Shown one piece after another: positions 12,462-43,777 of a stretch of 64,000 bases of DNA. A program made the translations under genes and the position numbers. Each line of letters opens with the position of its first letter. Position 1 is the first letter of the stretch. Source of the DNA: Pseudomonadota bacterium (lineage in GTDB: Bacteria > Pseudomonadota > Gammaproteobacteria > Steroidobacterales > Steroidobacteraceae); NCBI GenBank assembly GCA_021815925.1, contig JAKAZL010000001.1:88463-152462 (forward strand), written 5' to 3'. Below the pieces are notes generated by a model. The model ran no database searches. It saw only the letters and a program-made list of their open reading frames with translations, and was not told the DNA's origin.

Positions 12462-12464
12462 GTC

Positions 12465-13595: not shown

Positions 13596-13605
13596 GGGCA
13601 CGAAG

Positions 13606-13821
13606 ATGCGCAGCTTTTTGTACTTTGTCCTGTTTCTCATGATCGCCGTCATCGTCACGGTGCTCGCTGCGATCCTCGGCGATGAGGGGGCCTGGTACTT
13701 CGCGTGGCTGATCGGCACCACCATGATCGTGCTGGTCAGCGCGGCCGGCGGTGCGATGATGGATGCGCACGAGGAGCAACTCGCCGAGCAGCAGAGGGCC
13801 GAGGCGGGTCGGCGAGGCTGA
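13606..13821 (+). CDS. cydX: CydX-like cyd operon small protein with an extra N-terminal TM segment
   Basis: AWYFAWLIGTTMIVLVSAAGG aligns with the E. coli CydX start MWYFAWILGTLLACSFG; preceded in frame by MRSFLYFVLFLMIAVIVTVLAAILGDEG; upstream gaggg. Confidence 0.75.
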   Translation: MRSFLYFVLFLMIAVIVTVLAAILGDEGAWYFAWLIGTTMIVLVSAAGGAMMDAHEEQLAEQQRAEAGRRG

Positions 13822-13835
13822 TCGGGCCGCGCCGA

Positions 13836-15614
13836 GTGTCCTTCACGGGCGCGACGGAGGCATCGCCCGCTTCCCGCGTCGAGCCGACCGCAGGGCAATG
13901 GCTGCGCCGGGAGGCCAGAGGCATCCGCGGGCCGCTGGTGCGCACCGGCGTGCTCTCTGCGCTGCTCGCACTGGCGCTCGTCGGGCAAGCCTGGGTGCTG
14001 TCCGGAATTCTCGCCATGGGTGTGCTTGCCCATGCCGGCTTTACCGCGCTAGGAGGACTCGGGCTCGCGCTGCTGCTCCTGGCAGTGCTGCGGTTCGCTC
14101 TCGCGGTGGCCGCACGACGCAGCGCGTTCCAGGGCGCTCAGCAGCTGGCCCAGCGGCTGCGCGCGCGAATCCTGCAAGGTACCCAGGCGCTCGGCCCCTA
14201 CGGGCTGCGGGCCGAGGCCAGCGGCGATCTGATCACGCGTCTGGTCGACGGCGTCGAGGCCATTCTCGGGTACTTCGCTCGCTACCTGCCACAGGCAAGC
14301 GCGGCAGTTCTCGTCCCGGCGCTGCTGCTGGCATTCGTCTTTCCGGCCGATTGGCTCTCGGGGCTGATCCTGCTGGTGACGGCGCCGCTCATACCGCTGT
14401 TCATGGTGCTGGTCGGACGGGCCGCCGCGCAGGCCAGCGAGCGGCGCTACGCCCAGCTGACGCGGCTGGGCGCAGCCTTCATCGATGCCCTTGGCGGGCT
14501 CGTGACGCTGCGCCAGCTCGGCGCGGCGGAGCGCTTTGCGGCGCACCTCGAGGCGCAGAGCGAGGAGTACCGCGTGCTGAGCATGCAGGTCCTGCGCGTG
14601 GCCTTCCTCTCCGCCCTGGTGCTCGAGTTCTTCGCGATGATCAGCATCGCGGTCGTCGCGGTCCTGGTCGGCTTCCGTCTGTTGTGGGGCGAGATGCACC
14701 TGCGGGCAGGTCTGTTCGTGCTGCTGCTGGCGCCGGAGTTCTACCTGCCGTTGCGCGCGCTGGGCGGTCTGCGCCACGCACGCATGGACGCGCTGGCTGC
14801 CGCACGGCAGCTTGCGGCGCTCGATGCGCTCGCGCCGGGAGGCGCTGCGCCGCAACCGGTCGGCGCGCCAGTCAACCTCACCGCGGCACCGAAGATCTGC
14901 CTCGAGGCCGTCACGTACCAGCATCGCGGGCGCGCGGCCGGACTGCGCGAGTGCAGCCTCGTGATACCGGCCGGGCGCGTAACGGCACTGGTCGGCGCCA
15001 CCGGCTGTGGCAAGAGCACGTTACTCAACCTCATCCTGGGATTTGCCCGTCCCGGGCAGGGCCGTGTCCTGATCGACGGCCAGGATCTGGCCACGATGGA
15101 TGCCGCGCAATGGCGCGAGTGCATCGCCTGGGTGCCGCAGCACACGCACGTCTTCGAAGGCACCGTGCGCGAGAACCTGCTGTTGGCCGAGGAGCGGGCG
15201 GACGCGCGCGCGCTCGAGCGCGCGGCTCTCGAGAGCGGCCTCGGCGCGGTACTCGCTCGATTGCCGCAGGGGTGGGATACACCACTCGGGGAACGCGGTC
15301 TCGGATTGTCCGGCGGGCAGCTGCAGCGACTGGCCATCGCGCGCGCGTTGCTGCGTGCGCGCGCTCGCGTCTGGTTGCTTGATGAGCCCACGGCGCACCT
15401 GGATGCCGAGGGCGCACGCTCGCTCGAAAGGATGATCCGTGCGGCGGCGCCCAGCCGTACGGTGCTCCTGGCGGTGCACCGCCTGAGCACGGCACGCTCG
15501 GCCGACTGGGTAATCGTGCTGCGCGAGGGATGGATCGTCGAGCAGGGAGCGCCGGACGAGTTGGAACGGGGCGAGGGATACTATGCGCGGTTGCTGCAGG
15601 CGGAGCACGCATGA
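13836..15614 (+). CDS. cydD: Thiol reductant ABC exporter subunit CydD
   Basis: ABC exporter with TM domain and Walker A GATGCGKST, signature LSGGQLQRLAIARALL, downstream of cydABX; GTG start inferred. Confidence 0.9.
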   Translation: MSFTGATEASPASRVEPTAGQWLRREARGIRGPLVRTGVLSALLALALVGQAWVLSGILAMGVLAHAGFTALGGLGLALLLLAVLRFALAVAARRSAFQGAQQLAQRLRARILQGTQALGPYGLRAEASGDLITRLVDGVEAILGYFARYLPQASAAVLVPALLLAFVFPADWLSGLILLVTAPLIPLFMVLVGRAAAQASERRYAQLTRLGAAFIDALGGLVTLRQLGAAERFAAHLEAQSEEYRVLSMQVLRVAFLSALVLEFFAMISIAVVAVLVGFRLLWGEMHLRAGLFVLLLAPEFYLPLRALGGLRHARMDALAAARQLAALDALAPGGAAPQPVGAPVNLTAAPKICLEAVTYQHRGRAAGLRECSLVIPAGRVTALVGATGCGKSTLLNLILGFARPGQGRVLIDGQDLATMDAAQWRECIAWVPQHTHVFEGTVRENLLLAEERADARALERAALESGLGAVLARLPQGWDTPLGERGLGLSGGQLQRLAIARALLRARARVWLLDEPTAHLDAEGARSLERMIRAAAPSRTVLLAVHRLSTARSADWVIVLREGWIVEQGAPDELERGEGYYARLLQAEHA

Positions 15615-17329
15615 GCCGAGTGTTGCCACCGATGCTGCGTCGCCTGCTCGCGGTGCTGCATCCTGAGCGCAGTTGGATGCTCGGCGGCGCGGCGCTCGCG
15701 GTCCTCGCGGCGTTAGCGGCCATCGGTCTGATGGCCGTTTCAGGCTGGTTCATCGCGGCCATGGCGGTAGCCGGCGCGAGCGCTGCGGCGATCAATTACT
15801 ACACGCCTGCCGCGGCCATCCGCCTGTGCGCGATCCTGCGCAGTGGCGGACGCTATGGTGAGCGGCTGGTCACACACGAGGCGACGCTGCGCAGCCTGTC
15901 ACGTCTGCGGGTCTGGCTGTTCCGACGCCTGATCCCGCTGGCACCGGCGCGCCTGGCGGCATTGCGCAGCGGGGAGTTGTTTGCTCGGTTGCGCGCCGAT
16001 GTCGATGCGCTCGAGCATTTCTACCTGGCGGTACTGGTGCCGGGGGCCGTCGCGCTCGCCAGTGTCGCCACCGCCATCGTCCTGTGCCTGATCGTGCTGC
16101 CGGCCGCCGGTCTCGCCGTGCTGATCGGCGCGCTGCTCGCAGGCGTACTGGTGCCCGCTTGGCTGCAGCGGCGCGCCGCGCCCGATGCCGCCACGGCCGT
16201 GCGCGAAGGTGGCGCGCTGCGCGGGCTGCTACTGGATGCGCTGCGCGGGCATCCGGAGCTGCTCGCCTGGGGGCGTGTCAGCGCGCATGGCGCGCGCATC
16301 GAGCAGTTGGCGCGACAGCTGGATGCGCGCCGCGCCCGCCTCGAGGTGCTCGAGGCGACCGGGGGGGCGCTGGTGGGATTGTGTGCGCAGCTGACGCTCC
16401 TTGCAGTGCTCGGCATTGCGCTGGGCGCGGCGCACCGACACACGCTCTCGCCGCCGCTGCTGGTGATGCTCGCGCTGCTGGCCCTGGCGCTGTTCGAGGT
16501 CATCGGGCCGCTGTCCGAGGCGCTGGCCAGATGGTCGGCGACGCTGACTTCGTGCGCGCGCGTGTTCACGCTCGCAGACACGCCCGCACCGTTCGTCGAG
16601 CCGGAGGTCTCGGCCTCTGTGCCGCTGCGCCCTGCCGTCGTGTTCGAGGACGTGTCTCTGCGCTACGACGAGGCGGCGCCCTGGGCGCTGACGCAGGTGA
16701 ATCTCACCCTCGCCCCGGGGGCGCGGGTCGCGCTCGTCGGCGCCTCGGGGGCGGGCAAGAGCTCCCTCGTCGCCGCGCTCCTGAAGCTCTATCCGCTGCA
16801 GCACGGGCGGATCCTGTTCGGTGGACGGCCTCTGGAGTCGCTGCACGGGGATGAGCTGCGCCGGCACATCGCGGTCATCGCGCAACACAGCGTCCTGTTC
16901 AACCAGTCACTGCTCGAGAATCTGCTGCTGGCCGCGCCGCAGGCAACCGCCGCGCAGATCGAGCGAGCCGTCAGTCTCGCGCAGCTCGATGGATTCGTGG
17001 CATCGCTGCCGGACGGCTACGACACCCAGCTTGGCGAGGCTGGCGCGCTCGTTTCCGGCGGTGAGGCGCGGCGCATCGCGATTGCCCGCGCGCTGCTGCA
17101 GGATGCGCCGGTGTTGGTGCTCGATGAGCCCACCGAGGGGCTGGATGCGGTGACGGCCCGGGATCTGTACACGGCGCTGGATGCGGCTGCGAATGGACGC
17201 ACGTTGCTGCTGATCACCCACCGCCTGAGCGGGCTTGCCCGGCTCGTGGACGAGGTGGTGGTCATGGAGGCAGGCGCTGTGCAGGCGCGCAAACCGGTTG
17301 CGCAGTATCTGGCTGAGGTCGGCGGCTGA
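15611..17329 (+). CDS. cydC: Thiol reductant ABC exporter subunit CydC
   Basis: GLMAVSGWFIAAMAVAG; GASGAGKSSL; VSGGEARRIAIARALL; overlaps cydD stop. Confidence 0.9.
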   Translation: MSRVLPPMLRRLLAVLHPERSWMLGGAALAVLAALAAIGLMAVSGWFIAAMAVAGASAAAINYYTPAAAIRLCAILRSGGRYGERLVTHEATLRSLSRLRVWLFRRLIPLAPARLAALRSGELFARLRADVDALEHFYLAVLVPGAVALASVATAIVLCLIVLPAAGLAVLIGALLAGVLVPAWLQRRAAPDAATAVREGGALRGLLLDALRGHPELLAWGRVSAHGARIEQLARQLDARRARLEVLEATGGALVGLCAQLTLLAVLGIALGAAHRHTLSPPLLVMLALLALALFEVIGPLSEALARWSATLTSCARVFTLADTPAPFVEPEVSASVPLRPAVVFEDVSLRYDEAAPWALTQVNLTLAPGARVALVGASGAGKSSLVAALLKLYPLQHGRILFGGRPLESLHGDELRRHIAVIAQHSVLFNQSLLENLLLAAPQATAAQIERAVSLAQLDGFVASLPDGYDTQLGEAGALVSGGEARRIAIARALLQDAPVLVLDEPTEGLDAVTARDLYTALDAAANGRTLLLITHRLSGLARLVDEVVVMEAGAVQARKPVAQYLAEVGG

Positions 17330-22512: not shown

Positions 22513-23985
22513 ATGGCATTTCACGATCTGCGCACATTTCTCGCGCACCTGGAACAGCGCGGCGATCTGCGCCGCATTTCCGCTGCGGTGAACCCCGAGC
22601 TGGAGAGCACCTCGTTCTGCCTGCGCGCCCTGCGCCGGGAGGGGCCGGCGTTGCTGTTCGAGCGGCCCACCGGCGCCGAGCACGCCTTGCTCGGCAACCT
22701 GTTCGGGCACGCGCGCCGAATCGAGGCCGCGCTCGGGCGGGAGGGCACCGGTGCGCTGCGCGAGCTCGGAGAACTGCTTGCGGCGCTGAAGGAGCCGCAC
22801 TGGCCGTCGAACCTGCGCGAGGCGCTCTCTAGCTGGCCACAGTTCGCGCAGCTGGCGCATGTGGCTCCCCGCCGCCTCGCGCGCGCACCGTTCCAGGACA
22901 ATACCCTCGGCGGCGGACAGGTCGATCTGGCGCGTCTGCCGATTCAACGCTGCTGGCCGGAGGACGTCGCGCGCCTGATCACGCTCGGCCTGGTCGTGAC
23001 GCGCGGCCCGCGCAAAGCGCGGCAGAACGTGGCGATCTACCGCCAGCAGGTGATCGGGCGCGACCGGCTGATCATGCGTTGGCTGGCGCACCGGGGCGGG
23101 GCGGGCGACTTCGCCGACTGGCAGGCGGACCGTCCCGGTGAGCCTTTCCCGGTGCTCATCGCGATCGGCACCGATCCGGCGACGCTGCTCGCGGCGGCGG
23201 CGCCGATCCCCGACACGCTTTCGGAGTACGAGTTCGCGGGCCTCCTGCGCGGGGAGCGCAGCAGCGTCGTGCGCTGCGAGCTCACCGGGCTTGATGCCCC
23301 GGCGGGTGCGGAGATCGTTCTCGAGGGGTTCATTCAGGCGGGCGATACGGCCGTCGAGGGACCGTTCGGCGATCACACCGGCTACTACAACTCGCAGGCG
23401 AGCTTCCCGGTGCTCACGCTCGAGCGGATGCACCTGCGCGATGGGGCGATCTATCAGGGCAGTTACATGGGTCGCTCGCCGTACGATGAGCCCTCGGTCA
23501 TGGCGGTAGCGCTGAACGAGGTGTTCGTGCCCGTGTTGCGGCGCATATTCCCGGAGATCGTCGACTTCTACCTGCCGCCGGAGGCTTGCTCCTACCGTCT
23601 CGCGGTCGTCAGCATCCGCAAGCAGTATGCCGGGCACGCCCGCCGCATCATGATGGCGATCTGGTCGTACCTGCGTCAGTTCACCTACACCAAGTTCGTC
23701 ATCGTGACCGACGAGGACATCGACGTGCGCAACTGGCAGGAGGTGATCTGGGCCGTTGCGACGCGGGTCGATCCGGCGCGCGACAGTATGCTGATCGAGA
23801 ACACCCCGATCGACTATCTCGACTTCGCCAGTCCCGTGAGCGGGCTTGGCTCGAAGCTCGGCCTGGATGCTACGCACAAATGGCCCGGAGAGAGCACGCG
23901 CGAGTGGGGTCGTGCGATCCGGCTCGATGCGATGGTCGAGCGCCGGGTCGATGACCTGTGGCGCGAGTGCATCGGCAATGGCTGA
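22513..23985 (+). CDS. ubiD: UbiD family 4-hydroxy-3-polyprenylbenzoate decarboxylase
   Basis: [83 protein letters not shown]-type UbiD signature. Confidence 0.95.
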
Positions 23986-24991
23986 CCGGCGCGGCATTGA
24001 GCTGGTCTGCCCCGCGGGTAGCCTGCCGGCGCTGCACGCGGCGGTCGACAACGGCGCCGATGCCGTTTATCTAGGCTTTCGGGACGGCCTTAATGCACGC
24101 AACTTCCCCGGCTTGAATTTCTCGCCGGCCGATGCGCGCAGTGGCATCGAATACGCACATCGGCACGGTGCGCGGGTGTTTGTCGCCCTCAACGTGTATC
24201 CGCGGCCGAGCCGCTGGTCGGCGGCCACCGCCGCCGTCGATGCGGCGGCCGACGTCGGTGCCGATGCGCTCATTCTCGCCGACGCGGGGCTGCTGGGCTA
24301 TGCCGCGGAGCGCCATCCTCAGCTCAACCGGCACCTGTCGGTGCAGGCTTCTGCGAGCAACTGGGGCGCGCTGAAGTTCTACCAGGAGCGCTTCGGCATT
24401 CGCCGCGCGGTGCTGCCGCGCGTGCTGTCGGTCGCGCAGGTGCAGCGCGTGATCGAACGCAGCGGTGTCGAGATCGAAGTCTTCGGATTCGGCAGTCTGT
24501 GCATCATGGTCGAGGGGCGCTGTGCGCTCTCGGCGCACGTGACGGGAGAGTCGCCCAACACGCACGGCGTGTGCTCGCCGGCGCATGCCGTGCGCTGGAC
24601 CGAACGGCCGAGCGGCCGGCAGGCCCGCTTGAGCGGCGTGCTCATCGATGAGTTTGCCCCGGGTGAGGCGGCGGGTTACCCGACGCTGTGCAAGGGCCGG
24701 TTCGAGACGCTCGGCGAGATCATGCATGCGCTCGAGGAGCCGACCAGCCTCAACGTGCTCGACATTCTGCCGCAGCTGCTCAGCGCCGGTGTGAGCGCCA
24801 TCAAGGTGGAAGGGCGTCAGCGTGGCCCGGCGTACGTGGCACAGGTCACCCGGGCGCTGCGCGCGGCCCTCGATGCGTGCCGGCGTGATCCGGCCGCCTA
24901 CCGGCCGCCGGTTGCGCATGCCGCCGCGCTCGCGCGGCTGGCCGAAGGGCATACCCATACACTGGGGGCGTACAGCCGGCCATGGCAATGA
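23978..24991 (+). CDS. ubiU: Ubiquinone anaerobic biosynthesis protein UbiU (peptidase U32 family)
   Basis: [43 protein letters not shown]; overlaps ubiD stop; followed by a second U32 gene. Confidence 0.92.
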
Positions 24992-25004
24992 GAGGCATCC
25001 TGCA

Positions 25005-25868
25005 ATGAAGCTATCGGTCGGTCCGCTGTTGTATTACTGGGAGCGCGCGGAAGTGTTCGCCTTCTATCAGGCCCTCGCGTCGGCGCCGGTCGACAGCGTC
25101 TATCTCGGCGAGGTGGTCTGCTCGAAGCGCAGAGCGTTGCGGCAGGCGGACTGGGCGGCCATCGCGCGCGATCTCGCGGATGCCGGCAAGGAGGTCATCT
25201 TCTCGACGCTTGCGTTGATGGAGGCCGAATCGGAACTGGCGGCGCTCGGCCGTATTGCGGCCGGGAGCGTGACCATCGAGGCGAACGACATGGCGGCAGT
25301 GCAACTCGCCGGCGGCCATCCGTTCGTCGCCGGTCCGCACCTGAATGTCTACAACGGGCAGACGCTGCGACTGCTTGGCGCACTGGGAGCTCGGCGTTGG
25401 GTTGCGCCGCTGGAACTCGACGCCAGTGCGCTCGTGGAGCTTCTTGCCGAGCGCCCGGATGGGATGGAGTGCGAGGTGTTCGCGTATGGACGGATGCCGC
25501 TGGCGTTCTCGGCGCGTTGCTTCAGCGCGCGGGTGCGACGGCGCAACAAGGACGACTGCAGCTTCGTGTGCGGCGAGGACCGGGATGGTCTGACAGTCTA
25601 TACGCGTGAGCATGAGCCGCTGTTCGCGCTGAACGGCGTGCAAACCCAGTCGGCGCAGGTCTGCAATCTCATCGACCGCGTGGCGCAGCTTGAATCTGCC
25701 GGGGTGAATATCCTGCGCCTCTCACCGCAGTCGGATGCCGCGGCGCCATTCGCGCAGGTGATCGAGGCGTTCGCCCGGGCCGGACGCGGCGAGCCTGCCG
25801 CGGCGTGCCCGCCTAGCGCCCTGCCGGGCGGCTACTGCAGCGGCTCGGTACGCGAGGGTCATCACTGA
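25005..25868 (+). CDS. ubiV: Ubiquinone anaerobic biosynthesis protein UbiV (U32 family)
   Basis: [43 protein letters not shown]; adjacent to ubiU. Confidence 0.92.
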
Positions 25869-25872
25869 GCCG

Positions 25873-26376
25873 TTAGTGCGGCCGCCGGTGGCGCCCGAAA
25901 GGGTTGCGCGGTGGGGGTGGCAGGGGGCGCAGCGCCGCGCGCACCAGGCGCGCCGCGCCAGCCGGCACGAGCGTCGCGAGGTGGCCGCGCCAGTCCCACT
26001 CGAGCGCGTCCAGTGCGTTCTTGATGACCAACCCGGTTTCGGTCTCGCCCTCCAGGCTCAGCCGTCGCTGGAAGAACAGCGTATCGGAGTCCTCGCTGCG
26101 CGAGGCGAGGCGCGCGAAATCGGCCAGCCGTCCGCGCAGGGTGACGTGCGGCTCGCTGGCAGCGGGGGCGACTTTGAGCGCCCCGCCGGCGATGCTCAGG
26201 TGCAATTGCAGTGGGGCGTCCGTGACGCAGATGCGTACCCGCTTGCCCTCGATCTGCGCCAGTGCGGCACCGATGCTCTGGCCGCGCGCCAGGTGATTGA
26301 ACAGACGTACGAACAGCTGGGCGAACGGGTCCAGGTCCGCGAGCCACGGCGGACGACGGGGCGGAAAGGCAATCAT
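25873..26376 (-). CDS. ubiT: SCP2 sterol-binding domain protein, UbiT
   Basis: SCP2-like core (VTLRGRLADFARLASRSEDSDTLFFQRRLSLEGETETGLVIKNALDALEW); convergent to ubiV. Confidence 0.88.
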   Translation of the reverse strand: MIAFPPRRPPWLADLDPFAQLFVRLFNHLARGQSIGAALAQIEGKRVRICVTDAPLQLHLSIAGGALKVAPAASEPHVTLRGRLADFARLASRSEDSDTLFFQRRLSLEGETETGLVIKNALDALEWDWRGHLATLVPAGAARLVRAALRPLPPPPRNPFGRHRRPH

Positions 26377-26409
26377 GTGCCAATGGTAGCGGGCTGACGG
26401 GCGCGAAAC

Positions 26410-26423
26410 TTGATCCGTGTCAA
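26410..26423. promoter_or_regulatory. FNR-type box TTGATCCGTGTCAA between ubiT and fnr
   Basis: One mismatch to TTGAT-N4-ATCAA; centre 28.5 nt from minus-strand -10 candidate TACCAT (26388-26383) of ubiT. Confidence 0.65.
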
Positions 26424-26476
26424 GTGCTGACAATCCGCAGCGGGCCGCGCGGCGCACGACGATATACTCGCCCGGC

Positions 26477-27214
26477 GTGAGCGCCAAGCGTCAACCCAGC
26501 GGAACGGTCGCACCGGCATGCGTGTCCTGCCGTGATTGTGCGCTGAAGCCCATTTGCCTGCCGGCGCACCTGTCGGGCGAGGAAGCCCGCATGCTGGAGG
26601 CGGCGGTGCAACGCGGCCGCCAGCTGCCGACGGGTGTCGCGCTGATGCGCGCCGGTGAGCCGATGACGGCGCTGTTCGTGGTGCGCAGCGGTTCGGCCAA
26701 GCGCTACAGCGTGACACTCCAGGGCTGCGAGCAGGTGCACGGATTCGTTCTGCCCGGTGAGGCGGTCGGTCTGGAGGGCTTTGCGAGCGGTCGTTATACC
26801 TGCGAGGTGAGCGCGCTGGAGCCGCTCAGCTATTGCCGCGTCCCGATCCGCCGGCTGGAGCCGCTGCTCGAGCGGTTGCCCGGCCTGCGGCGCGAAATTC
26901 TGCGTCTGCTGGGCCAGGCGCTCGAGGAATCTCAGCGGCTGCGCTGCGAGCTGGCGCAGATCGATGCCCGCGGACGCGTTGCGCATTTCCTCGCCGACCT
27001 CTCGGGCCGGCTCGCACGGCGCGGACTCTCGCCCGTCGAGTTTCGTCTCAGCATGAGCCGCGCCGATATCGCCCGTCACCTCGGTCTCACGCTCGAAACC
27101 GTCAGTCGCGCGCTCGGCACTTTCAAACGGGAAGGCTGGCTGCGGGTGCGGGCTCGCGACATCAGCGTGCTGCAACCCGCTGCCCTCGTCGCACTCGGCA
27201 GCGGGCTCGCCTGA
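26477..27214 (+). CDS. fnr: FNR-type transcriptional regulator (Crp/Fnr family)
   Basis: N-terminal CVSCRDCALKPIC cysteine cluster plus internal Cys residues; HTH FRLSMSRADIARHLGLTLETVSRALGTF. GTG start preferred; ORF opens at 26417 inside the FNR box. Confidence 0.88.
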   Translation: MSAKRQPSGTVAPACVSCRDCALKPICLPAHLSGEEARMLEAAVQRGRQLPTGVALMRAGEPMTALFVVRSGSAKRYSVTLQGCEQVHGFVLPGEAVGLEGFASGRYTCEVSALEPLSYCRVPIRRLEPLLERLPGLRREILRLLGQALEESQRLRCELAQIDARGRVAHFLADLSGRLARRGLSPVEFRLSMSRADIARHLGLTLETVSRALGTFKREGWLRVRARDISVLQPAALVALGSGLA

Positions 27215-34247: not shown

Positions 34248-36415
34248 GCGAACTGACGCTCCTTGCGACCGTGCCGCGCGGGCTGGCCGATCTGGCCGCC
34301 GCGGAACTCGCCGTGCTCGGGGCGAACACGATCCGCGAGCACAACGCTGCCGTCGCATTCAGCGGCACTCTCGAGACCGCATACCGCGCCTGCCTGGAAT
34401 CGCGGCTGATCAACCGGGTGCTGCTCGAGATCGGGCGTTTCGAGGCGCCGAGCACCGAGGCGTTCTATCTCGGTGCGCGGGCGCTGCCGTGGAGCGAACA
34501 TCTCGGCGAGGGCGCGAGCCTTGCCTGCGAGTTCACCGGGCAGCATCCCACGATCGGGCACAGTCATTTTGGCGCGTTGAAGCTCAAGGACGCCATCGTC
34601 GATGCCCTGCGCGCCGAGCGCGGCAGCCGGCCGGAAGTGGCGCGCGAGCGCCCGGATGTGCGCGTCCACGCCCACGCCCGTGGCGCGACCATCAGTCTGT
34701 ACATCGACCTCGCCGGGGAGAGTCTGCATCGGCGCGGCTACCGCAGCGAGGCGCTCGCAGCGCCGCTGAAGGAAAACGTCGCCGCCGGGGTGCTCGTGCG
34801 CAGTCTCTGGCCACAGCTGTGCACCGATGGAGCACAGTTTCTCGATCCGCTGTGCGGATCCGGTACGTTGGTGATCGAGGCGGCGTTGATTGCCGCGCAG
34901 CGCGCGCCGGGACTGACACGCCGGTACTTCGGCTTCCTCGGCTGGCGCGGTCACGACGCGGCGCTGTGGCAGCGCTTGTGCGAGCAGGCGCGAGCGCGCT
35001 GCCGCGAGCCGGATGCCGGCCGGCCGCCGCTGCGCGGACGGGATCGCAATCCGGCGGCTGTGCGTGCGGCCATCGCCAACGCCGAGCGCGCCGGCGTCGG
35101 CGCGTGGGTGCGCTTCGAGGTCGGCACGCTCGAGGCGGCACGCCCCGAGGCGCCGGGGCCGGGGTTGCTGTGCACCAATCCGCCCTATGGGGCGCGCCTG
35201 GAGGATCTGGCGGCGGCGCGCCTCGTGCACCGCCAGCTCGGCGTGGTGCTGCGCGAGCACTTCCAGGGTTGGCGCGCCGCTCTGTTGACCGGGGCGCCGC
35301 AGCTCGGGATGGAGCTCGGCATTCGCGCCGAGCGCACCCACACGCTGTGGAACGGCGCGATCGAATGCCGTCTGCTGCGCATGCGCATCGAGGCGCAGAG
35401 CCTGCGCGAGCCGGGCTCCCTGGCGCGCCCGGACAGCGCACTCGCCGAGACGCCCGGTGCGCGCATGTTCGGCAACCGACTGGCGAAGAATCTCAAGCGT
35501 CTGCGCACCTGGGCGGAGCGCGAGTCGGTCACCTGTTATCGGCTGTACGACGCCGACATGCCCGAGTATGCCTTTGCCATCGACCGGTACGTGACCGTTG
35601 GGGACGCGCTCGCCTGGCTGTACGTGCAGGAGTACGCCCCGCCGCGCACGATCGAGCCGGAGGCGGCGCGCCGCCGCCGCGGCGAGATGCTGGCGAGCCT
35701 GCCGCAGGTGACCGGCGTGCCGCGCGAGCGGATCAAGCTGCGCACGCGGCGGCGGACCCGGCGCGGGGAGCAGTATGCCAAGCTCGCCGGCGAGGCCGCC
35801 TTTCACGTGGTGAGCGAGGGTGGGCTGAAGTTCGAGGTCAACTTCACCGATTACCTCGATACCGGGTTGTTCCTCGATCACCGGTTGACGCGCGAGCGGC
35901 TGCGCCGCGCGGCGCGCGGCGCACGTTTTCTCAACCTGTTCGCGTACACCGGAACGGCGACGGTTTATGCAGCGAGCGGCGGTGCGGCCAGCACCACGTC
36001 GGTCGACCTGTCGAATACGTACCTGGATTGGGCGCGACGCAACCTGGCGCTAAACGTCCCGGCCGACGGTCGTCACGAGTTCGTGCAGGCCGACTGCCTG
36101 CGCTGGTTGGGCGAGACGGTGCGCACCGGTGCGCGCTTCGAGCTGATCTTTCTCGACCCGCCGACCTTCTCCAATTCAAAGCGGATGGATGGCGTGCTGG
36201 ATGTACAGCGCGACCACCGCACGCTCATCGAGCAGTGCATGCAGCTGCTCGCACCCGGCGGGCTGCTCGTGTTCTCGACCAATGCGCAGCGCTTCCGCAT
36301 CGATCCGGAGCTCGAGCGTCGCTATACGCTACTCGATATCTCCGCGCCGACCCTGCCGCCGGATTTCGCGCGCAATCCGCACATTCACCGCTGCTTCGAG
36401 CTGCGGGCGCGCTGA
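34244..36415 (+). CDS. rlmKL: Bifunctional 23S rRNA methyltransferase RlmKL
   Basis: THUMP-like N-terminus; DPLCGSGTLVIEAALIA; TNPPYG; second MTase domain with FLNLFAYTGTATVYAA and IFLDPPTFSNSKRM. Confidence 0.95.
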   Translation: MSELTLLATVPRGLADLAAAELAVLGANTIREHNAAVAFSGTLETAYRACLESRLINRVLLEIGRFEAPSTEAFYLGARALPWSEHLGEGASLACEFTGQHPTIGHSHFGALKLKDAIVDALRAERGSRPEVARERPDVRVHAHARGATISLYIDLAGESLHRRGYRSEALAAPLKENVAAGVLVRSLWPQLCTDGAQFLDPLCGSGTLVIEAALIAAQRAPGLTRRYFGFLGWRGHDAALWQRLCEQARARCREPDAGRPPLRGRDRNPAAVRAAIANAERAGVGAWVRFEVGTLEAARPEAPGPGLLCTNPPYGARLEDLAAARLVHRQLGVVLREHFQGWRAALLTGAPQLGMELGIRAERTHTLWNGAIECRLLRMRIEAQSLREPGSLARPDSALAETPGARMFGNRLAKNLKRLRTWAERESVTCYRLYDADMPEYAFAIDRYVTVGDALAWLYVQEYAPPRTIEPEAARRRRGEMLASLPQVTGVPRERIKLRTRRRTRRGEQYAKLAGEAAFHVVSEGGLKFEVNFTDYLDTGLFLDHRLTRERLRRAARGARFLNLFAYTGTATVYAASGGAASTTSVDLSNTYLDWARRNLALNVPADGRHEFVQADCLRWLGETVRTGARFELIFLDPPTFSNSKRMDGVLDVQRDHRTLIEQCMQLLAPGGLLVFSTNAQRFRIDPELERRYTLLDISAPTLPPDFARNPHIHRCFELRAR

Positions 36416-36600
36416 GCGGCCCCCGACTCTTCCTCCGGCCGCCACGGCCGGCCCTGCTTCGTCTCGATGAATCCACGAATGAGTCGCCGCACGACCTGCG
36501 ACGGCGTGGCGTCCTCTTCGGCGCACAGCCGCTCGAAGACGGCCTTTTTGCGCGGATCGATCAGCACAGTGAGGCGGGCGGTTCGCGTTTCGAGGGACAC
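36385..36600 (-). CDS. Small ribbon-helix-helix/CopG-like protein
   Basis: MSLETRTARLTVLIDPRKKAVFERLCAEEDATPSQVVRRLIRGFIE; RHH-like beta strand plus two helices; overlaps rlmKL 3' end by 31 bp. Confidence 0.65.
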   Translation of the reverse strand: MSLETRTARLTVLIDPRKKAVFERLCAEEDATPSQVVRRLIRGFIETKQGRPWRPEEESGAAQRARSSKQR

Positions 36601-36641
36601 GGGCGGATCCTATTCACATTTGAGCTGCTTCCAATGATAAT

Positions 36642-38681
36642 ATGATGCACCTTCCGGTGCATCCTGTGATCACCCTATCGCCCATGCTGCTCGTCGGCTG
36701 CGTCGCGCTCTTGCTGGGCTGGACGGCGATTGGGCTCGCCGGTCTGCTGCGCCCGCGCAGCGTCGTCCTCTCCGGCCGCGTCCTGTTTCCGCTCGGGGCG
36801 CTGCTCGGATTCGCCCTCGCGGTGCTGGCCGGGGCAAGCCTGCTCGGCGGGGGCATCGAGCGGCTGGTGCTGCCCCTCGGACTGCCCGGTCTGCCGGCGC
36901 ACCTGCGGCTCGATCCGCTCTCGAGCGCCTTCCTGGTGCTGCTCGGGGCGGCCTCCGGCGGGATCTCGTTGTTCGCGGGCGGGTATTTCCGCGCCGGGGA
37001 GGGCGCAGCCCCCGGGCTGCTGTGCCTGCAGTACCACCTGTTTCTGGCCAGCATGGGGCTGGTGCTGCTCGCCGATGACGCCTACAGCTTCCTCGTAGCC
37101 TGGGAGGCCATGGCGCTGTCCTCCTATTTCCTGGTCACGACCCAGCACCGCCTTGCCGAGATCCGTCGCGCCGGATTCCTCTATCTGCTCATGGCGCACG
37201 TCGGGGCGATCTGCCTGCTGCTCGCGTTCGGGGTGCTGCAGGGCGGCAGCGGGCTGTTCACCTTTGCCGCCATGCGCGCGGCGCATCTGTCCCCGGGCTG
37301 GGCGGCAGCGGCCTTCCTGCTCGCGCTCCTCGGTTTCGGGGCCAAGGCGGGTCTGGTGCCGCTGCATGTGTGGTTGCCGGAAGCACACCCGGCGGCACCC
37401 TCGCCGGTCTCGGCGCTCATGAGCGGCGTGATGCTCAAGACCGCCGTGTACGGCGTGCTGCGGGTCGGGCTTGATCTGCTCGGGCACCCGGTCTGGTGGT
37501 GGGGGCTCGCGCCGCTCGCCCTGGGGCTGCTCACGATCGTCTATGGGGCGTTGTTCGCGGCCGTACAGACGGACATGAAACGCCTGCTCGCATACTCCTC
37601 GGTCGAGAACATCGGCATCGCCTTCACGGGCGTCGGTCTGACGATGGTCTTTGCCGGCTCGGGCATGCCGGTGGTGGCGGCGCTCGCCTTGTTGGCCACG
37701 CTCTATCACTGCCTCAACCACTCGTTCATGAAGAGTCTGCTGTTCCTCGGCACCGGGGCGGTGCTGCACGCCACCGGCGAGCGCAACCTCGGACGTCTTG
37801 GCGGGCTGATGCACCGCATGCCGTGGGTCGCCTGGCTGACGCTGGTCGGGACGCTGGCGATCGCGGGCCTGCCGCCGCTCAATGGTTTCGTGTCGGAGTG
37901 GCTGCTGCTGCAGTCGTTCCTGTTCACCGATGGCCTGCCGCACGCGCTGGTGAATCTGCTGATCCCGATGGGCGCGGCACTCGTGGCGCTCGGCGCAGCG
38001 CTCGCCGGCTATGTCATGGTCAAGTTCTACGGCATCATCTTTCTCGGCCAGCCGCGCGAGGCCTCGCTGGTCCACGCCCACGACTGCGGTTGGCTCGAGC
38101 GGATCGGGCTGCTGTGGCTCGCACTCGGCTGCGTGTTGCTCGGCCTGTTTCCGCTGCAGGTCATCGGGGCGCTCGGTGCGGTCACCGCCGAGCTGGTGGG
38201 AGCCGTCGTTCCGCAGGCCTCGCCCCATTGGTGGCTGCTCGCCCCGGTGCCCGGGCGCCCGGTGTCCTATGGGCCGGTGGTGTTCCTGACAGCCACTCTC
38301 GCGGTGGTGCTCATGACGGTGCTGATCGTGCGCCTGACCTATCGTCAGCGCGTGCGGCGAGCCCCGGCCTGGGACTGCGGCTTCGGCGCTCTCACGGCGC
38401 GCATGCAGGACACCGCCGAGGGATTCGGGCAGCCGATCCGGCACATTTTCCAGCCGTTCTTCGAGATCGAGCGGGAGTTGCCCGCGCCTGCGGATCGCGC
38501 GCCGCGCTATCGCATCGCCATCGCGGAGCGGATCTGGAAGCTTCTCTACGAGCCGCTGGTCCGCGCCGTCGAGCGTCTCGCCAACACGGTCGCGCGCGTG
38601 CAGCAGGGGCGGATCTCCGTCTACCTGCTCTACAGCTTCGCAACCCTGCTCGTGCTGCTGGCGGTGGCGATGGCCTCATGA
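36642..38681 (+). CDS. Proton-translocating antiporter-like subunit (HyfB/HycC/NuoL-type)
   Basis: HPAAPSPVSALMSGVMLKTAVYGVLRV; KRLLAYSSVENIGIAFTGVG; start may be internal because a palindrome overlaps the first ATG. Confidence 0.9.
   Translation: MMHLPVHPVITLSPMLLVGCVALLLGWTAIGLAGLLRPRSVVLSGRVLFPLGALLGFALAVLAGASLLGGGIERLVLPLGLPGLPAHLRLDPLSSAFLVLLGAASGGISLFAGGYFRAGEGAAPGLLCLQYHLFLASMGLVLLADDAYSFLVAWEAMALSSYFLVTTQHRLAEIRRAGFLYLLMAHVGAICLLLAFGVLQGGSGLFTFAAMRAAHLSPGWAAAAFLLALLGFGAKAGLVPLHVWLPEAHPAAPSPVSALMSGVMLKTAVYGVLRVGLDLLGHPVWWWGLAPLALGLLTIVYGALFAAVQTDMKRLLAYSSVENIGIAFTGVGLTMVFAGSGMPVVAALALLATLYHCLNHSFMKSLLFLGTGAVLHATGERNLGRLGGLMHRMPWVAWLTLVGTLAIAGLPPLNGFVSEWLLLQSFLFTDGLPHALVNLLIPMGAALVALGAALAGYVMVKFYGIIFLGQPREASLVHAHDCGWLERIGLLWLALGCVLLGLFPLQVIGALGAVTAELVGAVVPQASPHWWLLAPVPGRPVSYGPVVFLTATLAVVLMTVLIVRLTYRQRVRRAPAWDCGFGALTARMQDTAEGFGQPIRHIFQPFFEIERELPAPADRAPRYRIAIAERIWKLLYEPLVRAVERLANTVARVQQGRISVYLLYSFATLLVLLAVAMAS
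36644..36663. repeat. Perfect inverted repeat GATGCACC-TTCC-GGTGCATC at the start of the hyf/ehr-like operon
   Basis: 8-bp perfect arms, 4-nt spacer, overlapping the first in-frame ATGs. Confidence 0.85.
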
Positions 38682-39628
38682 GCGCGATCGAGTGGATCAC
38701 CCAGGTGCTCGAGGTGGCGCTGGCACTGGCGGCCGCCCCGGTGTTCCTCGGCTGGCTGAACCAGTGCCGTGCGTGGCTGCAGAACCGCCGCGCGCCGAGC
38801 CTCTGGCTGCCCTACCGCAACCTGCGCAAGCTCTTTCACAAGGAGGCGGTGATCGCCGAGAACGCCTCGCCGCTGTTTCGGATCGCGCCCTACGTCGTCT
38901 TCGGCGCAATGGCATTGGCCGCCGGAATCATCCCGTCCATGGGCACGCAGCTGCCGCTGGTCGTCTCGGCGGATGCGATCGCACTGGTCGGCCTGTTCGC
39001 TGCAGCCCGCATGTTCATGACGCTCGCCGCAATGGACGTCGGCACCGCCTTCGGCACGCTCGGCGCCCGTCGCGAGATGATGGTGGGGTTCCTCGCCGAA
39101 CCGGCGCTGCTGATGGTGATCTTCGTGGCCTCCATGCTCTCCTCGAGCACGGCGTTGCCGGTGATCACCCGCAATCTCGCCTCCGGGCACCTCGGGCTGT
39201 CCCCCGGACTGGCCTTCAGCGCCGTCGCATTCGTGCTCGTGCTGCTGGCCGAGAATGCGCGCATTCCGGTCGACAATCCGGCCACGCATCTCGAGCTCAC
39301 CATGATCCACGAGGCGATGGTGCTCGAATACTCCGCGCGCCATCTGGCGCTGATCGAATGGGCCGCGCAGCTGAAGCTGTTCAATTACGTCTGCATCGGC
39401 TTCGCGCTGTTTCTGCCCTGGGGCGTGGCGCGCGCCCAGATCGGGCCGCTCGGCCTGCTGGTGGCCATTCCGGCGCTCGCGGCGAAGCTGGCCGCCGCCG
39501 GCGCGGGCCTGGCGCTTATTGAGACGGTGTCGGCCAAGATGCGGGTGATGCGCATTCCGGAGTTCCTCGCGAGCGCATTCCTGTTCGCGGTCCTGGGTCT
39601 GCTGGTGCACGTGCTGCTGGGAGCGTGA
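38678..39628 (+). CDS. NuoH-like membrane subunit (HyfC/HycD-type)
   Basis: AENARIPVDNPATHLELTMIHEAMVLEYSARHLALIEWAAQLK. Confidence 0.9.
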   Translation: MSAIEWITQVLEVALALAAAPVFLGWLNQCRAWLQNRRAPSLWLPYRNLRKLFHKEAVIAENASPLFRIAPYVVFGAMALAAGIIPSMGTQLPLVVSADAIALVGLFAAARMFMTLAAMDVGTAFGTLGARREMMVGFLAEPALLMVIFVASMLSSSTALPVITRNLASGHLGLSPGLAFSAVAFVLVLLAENARIPVDNPATHLELTMIHEAMVLEYSARHLALIEWAAQLKLFNYVCIGFALFLPWGVARAQIGPLGLLVAIPALAAKLAAAGAGLALIETVSAKMRVMRIPEFLASAFLFAVLGLLVHVLLGA

Positions 39629-40302
39629 CTGCGATGACACATCTGACCCTGGGCCAACAGCTGCTCGATTCGTGCGCAGCGCTGCTGCTGCTGCTGTCCT
39701 TCGCGATGCTCTCGCAGCGGCGCGTGGTGACGCTCGTCAACCTCTACGCGGTGCAAGGCGCGGTGCTCACCGCCGCGACGCTGCTGCTCGCCTGGCGGAC
39801 GGGCGAGGGACACCTTTATCTCTCGGCCGCGCTCACCCTCGGGCTGAAGGTGGCGTTCCTGCCCTGGCTGCTGCACCGGTTGATCCGCCGACTCGGGGTG
39901 TACTGGGATACCGAGCCGTTGCTGAACGTGTCCGGAACCATGCTCGTGGGCCTCGTGATCGTGGTGTTCGCCTTCGCGTTGGCGCAACCGATCACGCTGC
40001 TCGCGAGCACCGCCACGCGCAGCGCAGTCGGGATTGCCGTGAGCGTTGTGCTGCTCGCCTTCCTCATGATGATCACGCGCCGCAAGGCCATGTCGCAGGT
40101 GGTGGGATTCCTGTCGATGGAGAACGGGGTGTTCTTCGGCGCCATGAGCGCCAGTTACGGCATGCCGATGGTCGTTGAGCTCGGCGTCGCCCTCGATGTG
40201 CTGGTGGGCGTGCTGGTGCTCGGGGTGTTCTTCTTCCAGATCCGCGAGCGCTTCGAGAGCCTCGACCTGCATCACCTCGAGGCACTGAAGGAGCACGAGT
40301 AG
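39625..40302 (+). CDS. HyfE/NuoK-like membrane subunit
   Basis: VVGFLSMENGVFFGAMSASYGMPMVVELGVALDVLVGVLVLGVFFFQI. Confidence 0.88.
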   Translation: MTAMTHLTLGQQLLDSCAALLLLLSFAMLSQRRVVTLVNLYAVQGAVLTAATLLLAWRTGEGHLYLSAALTLGLKVAFLPWLLHRLIRRLGVYWDTEPLLNVSGTMLVGLVIVVFAFALAQPITLLASTATRSAVGIAVSVVLLAFLMMITRRKAMSQVVGFLSMENGVFFGAMSASYGMPMVVELGVALDVLVGVLVLGVFFFQIRERFESLDLHHLEALKEHE

Positions 40303-40303
40303 G

Positions 40304-41761
40304 ATGGAGCTGCTGCTACTGCTGGCCGTTCCGATCACGGGCGCTGCCCTGCTTGGGATTCTCGGTGCGCATCGGCGCGCACCGGAGCTCAATGCCGCGT
40401 TCAGCCTGGCGACGCTGCTCGCCGCCGGCGCGCTTGCGGCCCGGGTGATCCGCCACGGCGATCTGCTGCTCGGGGCCGAGCAGTTCTACATCGACCCCTT
40501 CAACGTCTTTCTGGTGGCGCTGACCGCCTTCGTGGGGCTGACCACGGCGCTGTTCTCCCGGCCCTACATGCGCGTCGAGCTCGAGCATGGCCGCGTCACG
40601 CCCGGGCGGCTGCGGCTCTACCACGCGATGTATCAGCTGTTCATGTTCACCATGCTGCTGGCGCTGACGACCAACAACATGGGGCTGATGTGGGTGGCCA
40701 TGGAGGGCGCGACGCTCTCGACGGTCCTGCTGGTGACCCTGTACCGCACGCCGGAGAGTCTCGAGGCGGGCTGGAAGTACTTCATACTCTGCGGTGTCGG
40801 CATCGCCCAGGCGCTGTTCGGGACCATCCTGCTGTACGTCGCCGCCGGCAAGGTGCTCGGCGCGCAGGGCATGACGGCGCTGCTCTGGACGCATCTGGAT
40901 GCGGTGAAATCGCAGCTCGAGCCGACGGTGCTGGCGCTGGCGTTCGTGTTCCTGCTCATCGGCTACGGCACCAAGGTCGGTCTGGTGCCGTTGCACAGCT
41001 GGCTGCCCGATGCGCACGCCGAGGGGCCGACCCCGATCTCCGCCGTACTCTCGGGCCTGCTGCTCAACGTTGCGCTCTACGCGGTGGTGCGCAGCAAGGT
41101 GCTGGTGGAAGGGGCGCTGCACTCGCGCCTGCCCTCGATGATGCTCATGGGCTTCGGCCTGCTGTCGGTGGTGCTGGCCTCACTGCTGCTGTGGCGCCAG
41201 CGCGATATCAAGCGGCTGTTCGCGTATTCCTCCATCGAGCACATGGGCATCGCGACATTCGCCTTCGGGATGGGCGGTCCGATGGCCAATTTCGCGGCGC
41301 TCCTGCACATGACGGTGCACTCGCTGACCAAGTCCTCGATTTTCTTCACGGCCGGTCACGCCGCGCAGAAGGCCGGTACGCAGCTGATGGAGCAGATCCG
41401 CGGCCTCATCACGCTCTCACCCACGGTGGGCTGGGGTCTGATGCTCGGCTCGCTCGCTATCCTCGGGGTGCCGCCCTTTGGCGTGTTCGCCAGCGAGTTC
41501 CTCATCCTGACGACCGCCATGCATGCCCAGCCCTGGGCCACCCCGATCCTCCTGGGGGCGCTGGCCGTCGCCTTCGCCGGGATTTTCTCCAAGGTGCAGC
41601 CCATGGTGTTCGGTGAGACCAGCGGGCGCCGACTGCCGCATCCGCCGGCGTTGCTGCCGGTATTCGCGCACCTGGCCATCGTGCTGATGCTGGGACTGTA
41701 CATCCCGCCGTACCTCGCCGAGTGGTACCGCGCAGCAGCGCACCTGATCGGAGGGCCCTAG
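40304..41761 (+). CDS. Proton-translocating antiporter-like subunit (HyfF-type)
   Basis: GTKVGLVPLHSWLPDAHAEGPTPISAVLSGLLLNVALYAVVRS; KRLFAYSSIEHMGI. Confidence 0.9.
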   Translation: MELLLLLAVPITGAALLGILGAHRRAPELNAAFSLATLLAAGALAARVIRHGDLLLGAEQFYIDPFNVFLVALTAFVGLTTALFSRPYMRVELEHGRVTPGRLRLYHAMYQLFMFTMLLALTTNNMGLMWVAMEGATLSTVLLVTLYRTPESLEAGWKYFILCGVGIAQALFGTILLYVAAGKVLGAQGMTALLWTHLDAVKSQLEPTVLALAFVFLLIGYGTKVGLVPLHSWLPDAHAEGPTPISAVLSGLLLNVALYAVVRSKVLVEGALHSRLPSMMLMGFGLLSVVLASLLLWRQRDIKRLFAYSSIEHMGIATFAFGMGGPMANFAALLHMTVHSLTKSSIFFTAGHAAQKAGTQLMEQIRGLITLSPTVGWGLMLGSLAILGVPPFGVFASEFLILTTAMHAQPWATPILLGALAVAFAGIFSKVQPMVFGETSGRRLPHPPALLPVFAHLAIVLMLGLYIPPYLAEWYRAAAHLIGGP

Positions 41762-41798
41762 CAATGGGCGCGTTGCGGCGCAGCGCAAGGGGCGGGCG

Positions 41799-43271
41799 AT
41801 GCCGTTGAGGCGTTGGTGGGAGCGCGCACGAACCGTCGCGGGGGCACCCCGCGCCCGGGGCCTGGGGGTTGGCGAGGACGAGTGGCTGCAGGTGGCGCGG
41901 GACGTCGCCGCCTCGGGCGGCACGCTGCTCTCCCTGTGGGCGGGTGAGGATCCGACCGAGGGCCCGAGCGTGTACGGCGCTTATCTCACGGACCCCGGCG
42001 TGCTGCTGATCGAGCTGGCGCTACCGGCTGCGGTGCTGCCGCGCTACCCGGGACTCGAGGAGATTTTTCCGGCGGCGTCGCGGCTGCAGCGGGTGGCATT
42101 CGAGATCAGCGGGGTGCGCGCGAGCGATCCGGACCAACGCCCCTGGCTGGATCACTCGGCACCCTACGAATTCATCCGCGTCGACGGCGAGGGCGTCCAC
42201 GAGATCGCCGTGGGACCGGTGCACGCCGGCACCATCGAGCCGGGGCACTTCCGCTTCTCGGCGGTGGGCGAGAAGGTGCTGCGGCTCGAGCAGCACCTCG
42301 GCTATGCACACAAGGGTATCGAGCAGCGCTTCACGCAACTGCCCATCCTGCAGGGCCATCGTCTGGCGGCACGCATATCGGGCGACTCGGCGGTGGCGTT
42401 CTCCTGGGCCTACTGCCAGGCCCTCGAGGGCATGAGCGGCTGCGAGGTGCCGCCGCGCGCGGTCAGGCTGCGCGCGGTGTGCCTGGAACTCGAGCGTCTC
42501 GCCAATCACCTCGGGGATCTTGGCGCGCTTGGCAACGATGCCGGGTTCGCGTTCGGACTCGCCCAGTTCTCGCGTCTGAAGGAAAATCTCCTGCGTGCGG
42601 TGTCGGCCGCGTTCGGCCGGCGCTACCTGTTCGACGTTCTCGTGCCCGGTGGCCTGGCGATGGATGTGCCGACCGCGGTGGCGGGCGCGCTGCTGCATGC
42701 CGTGCATGCCGTGTGCGCCGAGACGGTCGAACTGCGCGAGATCTACGAGGCGCACGCCGGGGTGCGCGACCGCTTCACGGGTACCGGCTGCCTGGAGCCG
42801 GCGCTCGCGGCTCGGCTCGGAGTGCTCGGACTTGTCGGCCGCGCGAGCGGGCAGGAGCGCGACCTGCGTGTTGGCCTGCCGTGGCCGCCCTACACGGAGC
42901 TGCCGGTTGCGATGTGCGTGCAACGTGGGGGGGACGTCGCGGCGCGGGTGGCGGTGCGCTTCGATGAGGTGCAGGAGTCGGGGCGGCTGCTGGGTGAGCT
43001 GCTCGCGGCGCTGCCCGACGGCGGGTTCGCGGCAACACTGGAAGCGCCGGCGTGCGACGCGTTCGGCGTGGGCGTCATCGAGGGCTGGCGCGGGCCGGTA
43101 CTGCTGGCCCTGCAGGCCGGGCCGGGGGGGACGATCCGCCGCTGCCATCCTCACGATCCCTCATGGCAGAACTGGCCGGCACTGGAGTACGCCATCATCG
43201 GCAACATCGTGCCGGACTTTCCGCTCATCAATAAATCCTTCAATCTCGCCTACAGCGGCGTGGATCTGTGA
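41799..43271 (+). CDS. NuoCD/HyfG-like large subunit lacking the NiFe-ligand CxxC motifs
   Basis: GPVHAGTIEPGHFRFSAVGEKVLRLEQHLGYAHKGIEQ (CD-like); L1 position reads RISGDSAVAFSWAYC, C-terminus SFNLAYSGVDL with no DPCxxC. Confidence 0.88.
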   Translation: MPLRRWWERARTVAGAPRARGLGVGEDEWLQVARDVAASGGTLLSLWAGEDPTEGPSVYGAYLTDPGVLLIELALPAAVLPRYPGLEEIFPAASRLQRVAFEISGVRASDPDQRPWLDHSAPYEFIRVDGEGVHEIAVGPVHAGTIEPGHFRFSAVGEKVLRLEQHLGYAHKGIEQRFTQLPILQGHRLAARISGDSAVAFSWAYCQALEGMSGCEVPPRAVRLRAVCLELERLANHLGDLGALGNDAGFAFGLAQFSRLKENLLRAVSAAFGRRYLFDVLVPGGLAMDVPTAVAGALLHAVHAVCAETVELREIYEAHAGVRDRFTGTGCLEPALAARLGVLGLVGRASGQERDLRVGLPWPPYTELPVAMCVQRGGDVAARVAVRFDEVQESGRLLGELLAALPDGGFAATLEAPACDAFGVGVIEGWRGPVLLALQAGPGGTIRRCHPHDPSWQNWPALEYAIIGNIVPDFPLINKSFNLAYSGVDL

Positions 43272-43777
43272 CCATGCTCAAGACGCTGCACAAGATCGTC
43301 TCGGTGGGCCTGGTGTCGGAAGCGGTGCCCCCAATCGATGAGCTGCTACGCGTGCGCCGCGTGCTCGACGGGCGGATTGCCGCGGTGCTCGGTCGCGCGC
43401 TGTGCATCCGTCATGTGGACGCCGGTTCCTGCAACGGTTGTGAGCTGGAGATCCAGGCGCTCGGCAATCCCTATTACAACCTCGAGGGGTGCAACATCCG
43501 CTTCGTCGCCAGCCCCCGCCATGCCGATATGCTGCTGGTCACCGGCCCGGTGGTGCGGAATATGGAGGCGGCGTTGCGGCGCGTCTACGCGGCTGCCCCG
43601 GATCCGAAGCTGGTGGTGGCGCTCGGCGACTGCGGCTGCACCGGCGGTGTGCTCGGCGAGTGCCCCGCGTCCCTGGGTCGCGTCGCGAACGTCATTCCGG
43701 TGGATGTGGCCGTTCCGGGCTGCCCGCCGAGTCCGGTGCGGATCCTGCAGGGGATTCTGACCGCGATCGGTGCTTGA
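43268..43777 (+). CDS. NuoB/HyfI-like Fe-S small subunit
   Basis: SCNGCELEIQALGNPYYNLEGCNIRFVASPRHADMLLVTGPV; GDCGC; PGCPPSP; GTG start or ATG 43274. Confidence 0.92.
   Translation: MTMLKTLHKIVSVGLVSEAVPPIDELLRVRRVLDGRIAAVLGRALCIRHVDAGSCNGCELEIQALGNPYYNLEGCNIRFVASPRHADMLLVTGPVVRNMEAALRRVYAAAPDPKLVVALGDCGCTGGVLGECPASLGRVANVIPVDVAVPGCPPSPVRILQGILTAIGA

Follow-up and report, generated by a model that had tools for sequence, protein, structure and literature searches.

A nickel-ligand-free, hydrogenase-related membrane complex of the hyfBCEFGI type in a member of the Steroidobacteraceae

What can a membrane complex do that is built on the plan of hydrogenase-4 and complex I and has lost the residues that bind nickel? 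The question is raised by six genes at positions 36642-43777 of a stretch of 64,000 nucleotides (the window) from a Pseudomonadota bacterium of the Steroidobacteraceae (assembly GCA_021815925.1, contig JAKAZL010000001.1, positions 88,463 to 152,462 of the forward strand). Judged by its sequence, the cluster is an energy-converting hydrogenase-related (Ehr) complex of the hyfBCEFGI type and not a hydrogenase, because its subunits are those of the group 4 hydrogenases and complex I, the large subunit has lost both CxxC pairs, and the iron-sulphur (Fe-S) small subunit and the pump subunits are intact. An earlier sequence-only reading had proposed an Ehr-like complex, and our analysis supports it with the caveat that the six-gene type was already described (PMC7735108, PMC6002666, PMC10284858, PMC4378227, PMC2864759). 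That reading was also correct in stating that the electron donor and acceptor of the Ehr class are unidentified.

The genes are contiguous, all on the forward strand and overlapping or almost touching, in the order HyfB-HyfC-HyfE-HyfF-large (CD)-small, and all six reading frames are open, as described before. They encode a HyfB-type antiporter-like subunit of the NuoL/M family (36642..38681, 679 amino acids; NCBIfam 'hydrogenase 4 subunit B', E 1.4e-260, above the cut-off), a HyfC/NuoH-type membrane subunit (38678..39628, 316 amino acids; PF00146, E 6e-28), a HyfE-type membrane subunit that contains NuoK (39625..40302, 222-225 amino acids; its match to the hydrogenase 4 membrane subunit of NCBIfam, with E 1.4e-28, falls short of the curated cut-off), a HyfF-type antiporter-like subunit (40304..41761, 485 amino acids; NCBIfam hydrogenase 4 subunit F, E 2.7e-254, above the cut-off), a CD-fused large subunit resembling HyfG and HycE (41799..43271, 490 amino acids; PF00346, Complex1_49kDa) and a small subunit resembling HyfI and NuoB (43268..43777, 169 amino acids; PF01058, Oxidored_q6, E 7e-30). 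HyfB and HyfF both belong to Proton_antipo_M (antiporter-like E-values of 1e-53 to 1e-260) and HyfC to NADHdh/NuoH, so that Pfam and NCBIfam matched the subunit identities given earlier, and no HyfH, formate dehydrogenase or hyp gene lies inside the cluster, again in agreement with the first reading. The start of HyfC was refined to the ATG at 38678, which overlaps the HyfB stop, and that of HyfE is either 39625 or 39634. For HyfB a start at 36684 instead of 36642 is possible, because the sole promoter-like site (36613-36641) lies directly against the first ATG.

The loss of the nickel site is clearest in the large subunit, where RVCGIC of Escherichia coli HycE has become RISGDS and DPCYSC has become NLAYSG. 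The sequence-only reading had noticed the altered RxCGxC position and a C-terminus, SFNLAYSGVDL, without DPCxxC; comparison with HycE confirmed that both ligand pairs are replaced and extended the loss to the whole family. Among 106 homologues the four ligand columns hold Ser in 87, Cys in 10 and Ala in 8; Ser in 81, Thr in 20 and Cys in 3; Ser in 88, Ala in 12 and Cys in 1; and Gly in 101, Ala in 3 and Cys in 1, respectively. The window protein ends with the second motif (SGVDL), as NuoCD does, and has no maturation tail, whereas HycE extends some 30 residues beyond that motif and both HycE and HyfG continue into maturation tails. All 106 homologues share with HycE a Glu in EPGHF, a His in GPxH and an Arg in WRG, and the family has acquired new near-invariant residues (the Asp of SGD, and NKS).

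A profile of the large subunit (A1), built from 30 relatives and searched against the PDB, ranked E. coli HycE (7z0s_E, E 3e-80) first, the membrane-bound hydrogenase of Pyrococcus furiosus second and NuoD third. The AlphaFold2 model (predicted local distance difference test score 87) likewise has a HycE-like fold, with 7z0s_E as its best match (E 1.5e-29; by query length the template modelling score is 0.83). The second best is E. coli NuoCD, over almost the full length, and this match supports the predicted fusion of C and D domains. The HycE-like fold and the second-sphere residues shared with HycE are what could be said for an active [NiFe] hydrogenase that uses Ser and Asp as unusual ligands. 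We consider such an enzyme extremely improbable: the four thiolates and the maturation extension are absent, HyfG of Acidithiobacillus ferrooxidans, whose hyfBCEFGI genes have been described as non-hydrogenase, is classed as such by HydDB (PMC7735108), and the host encodes a genuine [NiFe] hydrogenase elsewhere in its genome.

The remainder of the complex is well preserved. The cysteines of the predicted single [4Fe-4S] site of the small subunit (C55, C58, C122 and C152), seen before as the CNGC, GDC and PGCPP motifs, are kept in 105-106/106 homologues. Charged residues expected on the ion path are invariant in HyfB (E155, K235, K364 and E419; 88 homologues), HyfF (E134, K224, K343 and E398; 100 homologues) and HyfC (E141, D199, E206, E212 and E217; 89 homologues). 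With the Fe-S cysteines and these charges retained, the sequences speak for a functioning pump that has a single Fe-S cluster and lacks a nickel site. In HyfC (38678-39628) we also observed two fully conserved, family-specific histidines, H204 and H211, at positions that E. coli HyfC fills with Glu and Gln; they possibly reflect a tuned ion path.

We therefore regard it as probable that the complex is a redox-driven membrane ion pump on the hydrogenase-4/complex I plan that can neither make nor use H2; its redox activity, pumping, donor, acceptor and direction are what we infer. A soluble low-potential carrier, with a ferredoxin-like protein as the default guess, would dock directly on the small subunit and reduce its single [4Fe-4S] cluster, from which the electrons would be taken up by a small organic acceptor, bound in the former NiFe pocket at the interface of the large subunit, the small subunit and HyfC. 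The likeliest acceptor would be a quinone, although not one held by the His/Tyr ligands of complex I. The reaction would drive translocation of H+, or possibly Na+, through HyfC, HyfE, HyfF and HyfB, and might also run in reverse.

Several points weigh against this reading. The columns aligned to His38 and Tyr87 of NuoD, which we take to be the quinone ligands of complex I, hold Ile in 106/106 and Gly in 103/106 homologues, respectively, so that a classical complex I quinone site is not supported by the alignment. The soluble donor is a guess, no gene for an electron-transfer partner is conserved beside the cluster across the type A loci (those of the window's own family) that we examined, and the cited literature on the complex reports no measured activity, Fe-S cluster or pumping. 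In a separate check the host genome (2.73 Mb, 93.8% complete) was searched for a HyfH-like gene, as had been suggested, and none was found among the Fer4 matches read (a weaker match on contig C130 excluded), which were FdsA, an Fe-S subunit of a [NiFe] hydrogenase, a subunit of a molybdopterin enzyme, FdxA, RnfB and QueG; a hidden HyfH was thus rejected.

The lack of a conserved donor gene and the loss of both the nickel and the quinone ligands could also mean that there is no redox reaction at all, and that the complex is an ion antiporter like Mrp with its hydrogenase-like arm left as a structural relic. A relic would drift, however, yet across large divergence the Fe-S cysteines were kept in nearly all homologues and the pocket Glu, Arg and His in all of them, which argues that the arm is no relic and makes this explanation very unlikely. 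More distant relatives (type B, L145-L151; 31-36% identity, gene order C-E-F-L-S-B) have also lost the CxxC pairs, and their small subunit, where read complete, carries two extra [4Fe-4S]-like motifs in a fused, ferredoxin-like N-terminal domain that type A does not have. The retention of these motifs suggests that the arm still conducts electrons. Type B further differs from type A in the loss of the GPxH His and in having one or two HyfB genes at the end. An example of the fused small subunit is found at 10600-11364 of L146, and L150 holds two type B clusters in divergent orientation.

Type A is a discrete family: it was found in 62/399 sampled Pseudomonadota genomes with all matches above 410 bits, clearly set off from the true hydrogenases that follow at 275 bits or less. 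Close homologues of the window complex occur in 34/274 genomes of the class, and more than 570 relatives in named genomes include Nitrospirota, Geobacter and Acidobacteriaceae. Homologues were also seen on plasmids and chromids, in Cupriavidus, Burkholderia, Rhizobium and Azospirillum. In the tree a single group (100/100) takes in 45/46 type A sequences and places the window copy beside other Steroidobacteraceae; the first copy of L075 is the only outlier. The uninterrupted order B-C-E-F-L-S without HyfH was seen in 92 complete loci. The earlier reading had taken the minimal, ferredoxin-less set as a puzzle of this locus; the absence stands, and it is the norm of the family and no peculiarity of the window.

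The genes around 153 type A loci were compared in search of a partner (genes in related loci were called with a simple codon model, and neighbours were found by tblastn with a few queries). One proposal is that a formate dehydrogenase feeds the complex, which would then be an ion-pumping oxidoreductase of formate and quinone or another acceptor. Models of this kind have been put forward (PMC6349859, PMC7894505), Acidithiobacillus thiooxidans has an fdh-mhy cluster (PMC6002666), Ehr proteins of Geobacter reached higher levels on formate than under hydrogen (PMC7894505), and the window genome itself carries an FdsAB-like formate dehydrogenase. FdsAB is an NAD-linked enzyme with its own acceptor, however, and FdsA was found at 0/153 type A loci; another molybdopterin enzyme was matched at a single locus, at a distance of 3.9 kb and on the other strand. 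A formate dehydrogenase partner was rejected on this neighbourhood evidence, and a formate-linked complex seems unlikely to us.

A different signal came from inorganic carbon. SulP transporters lie within 3 kb of 12/153 loci and were absent from the 0.62 Mb of flank farther out (binomial p 8e-4 within the sample, in which loci are partly related), and these SulP proteins belong to subfamilies as little as about 20% alike. Carbonic anhydrase candidates adjoin four loci, two of them (L074 and L184) of the gamma type by our own assignment from Hexapep matches, one (L059) with a CsoSCA domain and one (L133) a homologue of the L059 protein that itself has no Pfam match, and RuBisCO stands beside the cluster in one locus (L087). 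The label SulP/carbonic anhydrase/RuBisCO requires at least eight changes on the tree and is scattered over lineages. In line with this, the hyf genes of Acidithiobacillus caldus adjoin a beta-carbonic anhydrase (PMC3826726). Carbonic anhydrase genes have been reported beside 'formate hydrogenlyase' genes in autotrophs with the Wood-Ljungdahl pathway (PMC10880623). The complex might thus energise the uptake of CO2 or bicarbonate, either by an ion gradient that its antiporter arms would build for a SulP bicarbonate symporter or by coupling to hydration by a carbonic anhydrase, much as NDH-1MS and DAB do. This link is real but a minority signal. It concerns only about 9% of the loci, the window locus has no carbon-related neighbour, the host lacks a SulP gene while having DabAB, SulP proteins transport sulfate and other anions too, and RuBisCO is not enriched in carrier genomes (20/34 vs 122/240, p 0.46). 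We give it a small chance of being the explanation. The wider idea that hyfBCEFGI Ehr complexes are carbon-acquisition engines coupled to redox reactions or the proton motive force, paired in different lineages with unrelated SulP proteins or carbonic anhydrases, is distinctly unlikely; if true, it would add a third complex I-derived system for CO2/bicarbonate to NDH-1MS and DAB. A tie to autotrophy was rejected for want of RuBisCO enrichment in carriers, even though the host has a RuBisCO operon of the Calvin-Benson-Bassham cycle with cbbS, cbbX and PRK-like genes. DabA (PF10070) was not found in the 153 loci; in the host a LysR-DabB-DabA operon is located at 3493-8515 of contig C131 (L169).

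Among the other neighbours, malic enzyme and a spermidine-synthase-like protein recur mostly in betaproteobacteria and were read as chromosomal synteny, and N-ATPase and universal stress protein genes on plasmids were rejected as partners, being present in 1-3 loci only. On a Methylovirgula plasmid (L223, 1-10971) a type A cluster lies beside an F-type ATP synthase operon that resembles N-ATPase, and in a metagenome-assembled genome of the Nevskiales (L036, 2401-4053) a phosphoenolpyruvate carboxykinase gene directly precedes HyfB. A divergent gene for an RHH_9 ribbon-helix-helix protein, a candidate local regulator, precedes the window cluster (36385..36600, reverse strand, 71 amino acids, GTG start; PF19839, E 2.5e-21); a homologue is close to the cluster in 25 related loci, and another 23 have an XRE-type regulator there.

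The host genome carries canonical nuoL, nuoM and nuoN at the start of contig C139 (L168, 102-5104), with nuoA-K in an assembly gap, and the idea that the Ehr complex replaces complex I in a genome without NuoD was consequently rejected. The genuine [NiFe] hydrogenase, with an RICGVC motif, a small subunit and an Fe-S partner, is encoded at 4212-8960 of contig C24 (L170). Because the host has both nuoLMN and this hydrogenase, it neither lacks complex I nor needs the Ehr complex for H2. Elsewhere in the window, positions 22513-27214 encode UbiD, two U32 proteins, an SCP2 protein and a Crp/Fnr regulator; naming the U32 pair UbiU/UbiV-like and the SCP2 protein UbiT-like, which is our own choice, this looks like a cluster for O2-independent ubiquinone synthesis. 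Positions 10851-17329 hold cytochrome bd oxidase (cydAB) and, after it, two cydDC-type ABC transporters, the second judged by eye.

The family and its six-gene complex without CxxC pairs were already known, and the window holds a well-preserved member. Unexplained genes of A. thiooxidans encode the identical replacement motifs SGD[TS][TS][AV][GA]Y and NLSYSGHDL (PMC6002666), hydrogenase function was doubted for the six hyf genes of Cupriavidus (PMC2864759), and Ehr complexes without a known function were noted in comammox Nitrospira (PMC10284858) and Sulfobacillus (PMC4378227). Literature searches returned no functional data on H16_A2196-2201 of C. necator and nothing relevant to the complex on low-oxygen expression in Burkholderia, and the work cited here gives no substrate for Ehr complexes. 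What we add is that the quinone ligands are gone too, that formate dehydrogenase is not a neighbour in the 153 loci, and that SulP and carbonic anhydrase genes adjoin some of them. Ehr complexes stand between hydrogenases and complex I and occur in roughly one in six sampled Pseudomonadota genomes; the loss of nickel and quinone ligands, the preserved Fe-S site and the repeated presence of SulP and carbonic anhydrase genes nearby together make a concrete hypothesis that can be tested in tractable carriers such as Cupriavidus, Azospirillum and Rhizobium.

Compared with known systems, the window complex shows no material difference from the hyfBCEFGI Ehr complexes of Acidithiobacillus, Cupriavidus, Nitrospira and Sulfobacillus (see also PMC5596200). 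The same six genes are reported for Cupriavidus, A. ferrooxidans and Nitrospira, and the large subunit on the megaplasmid of C. metallidurans CH34 is homologous to that of the window, with 54% identity in our own comparison; the window copy differs in its C-terminal motif, where A replaces S, and in its divergent RHH_9 gene. With formate hydrogenlyase and hydrogenase-4 of E. coli (HycE, HyfG) it shares gene order, fold and second-sphere residues, but it is without the nickel ligands, the C-terminal extension, HyfA, HyfD, HyfH, HyfJ and a formate dehydrogenase. Complex I/NDH-1 has in common with it the core of NuoB, CD, H, K and L/M-type subunits and a single N2-like cluster, whereas NuoI and the NADH module (NuoEFG) are missing from the window cluster and Ile and Gly stand at the equivalents of His38 and Tyr87. 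DAB and the cyanobacterial NDH-1MS share its NuoL-like pump subunits, and a few relatives of the window complex adjoin SulP and carbonic anhydrase genes; an analogy in function is a hypothesis. Unlike them, the window cluster has no DabA or Cup protein and retains the Fe-S and large subunits.

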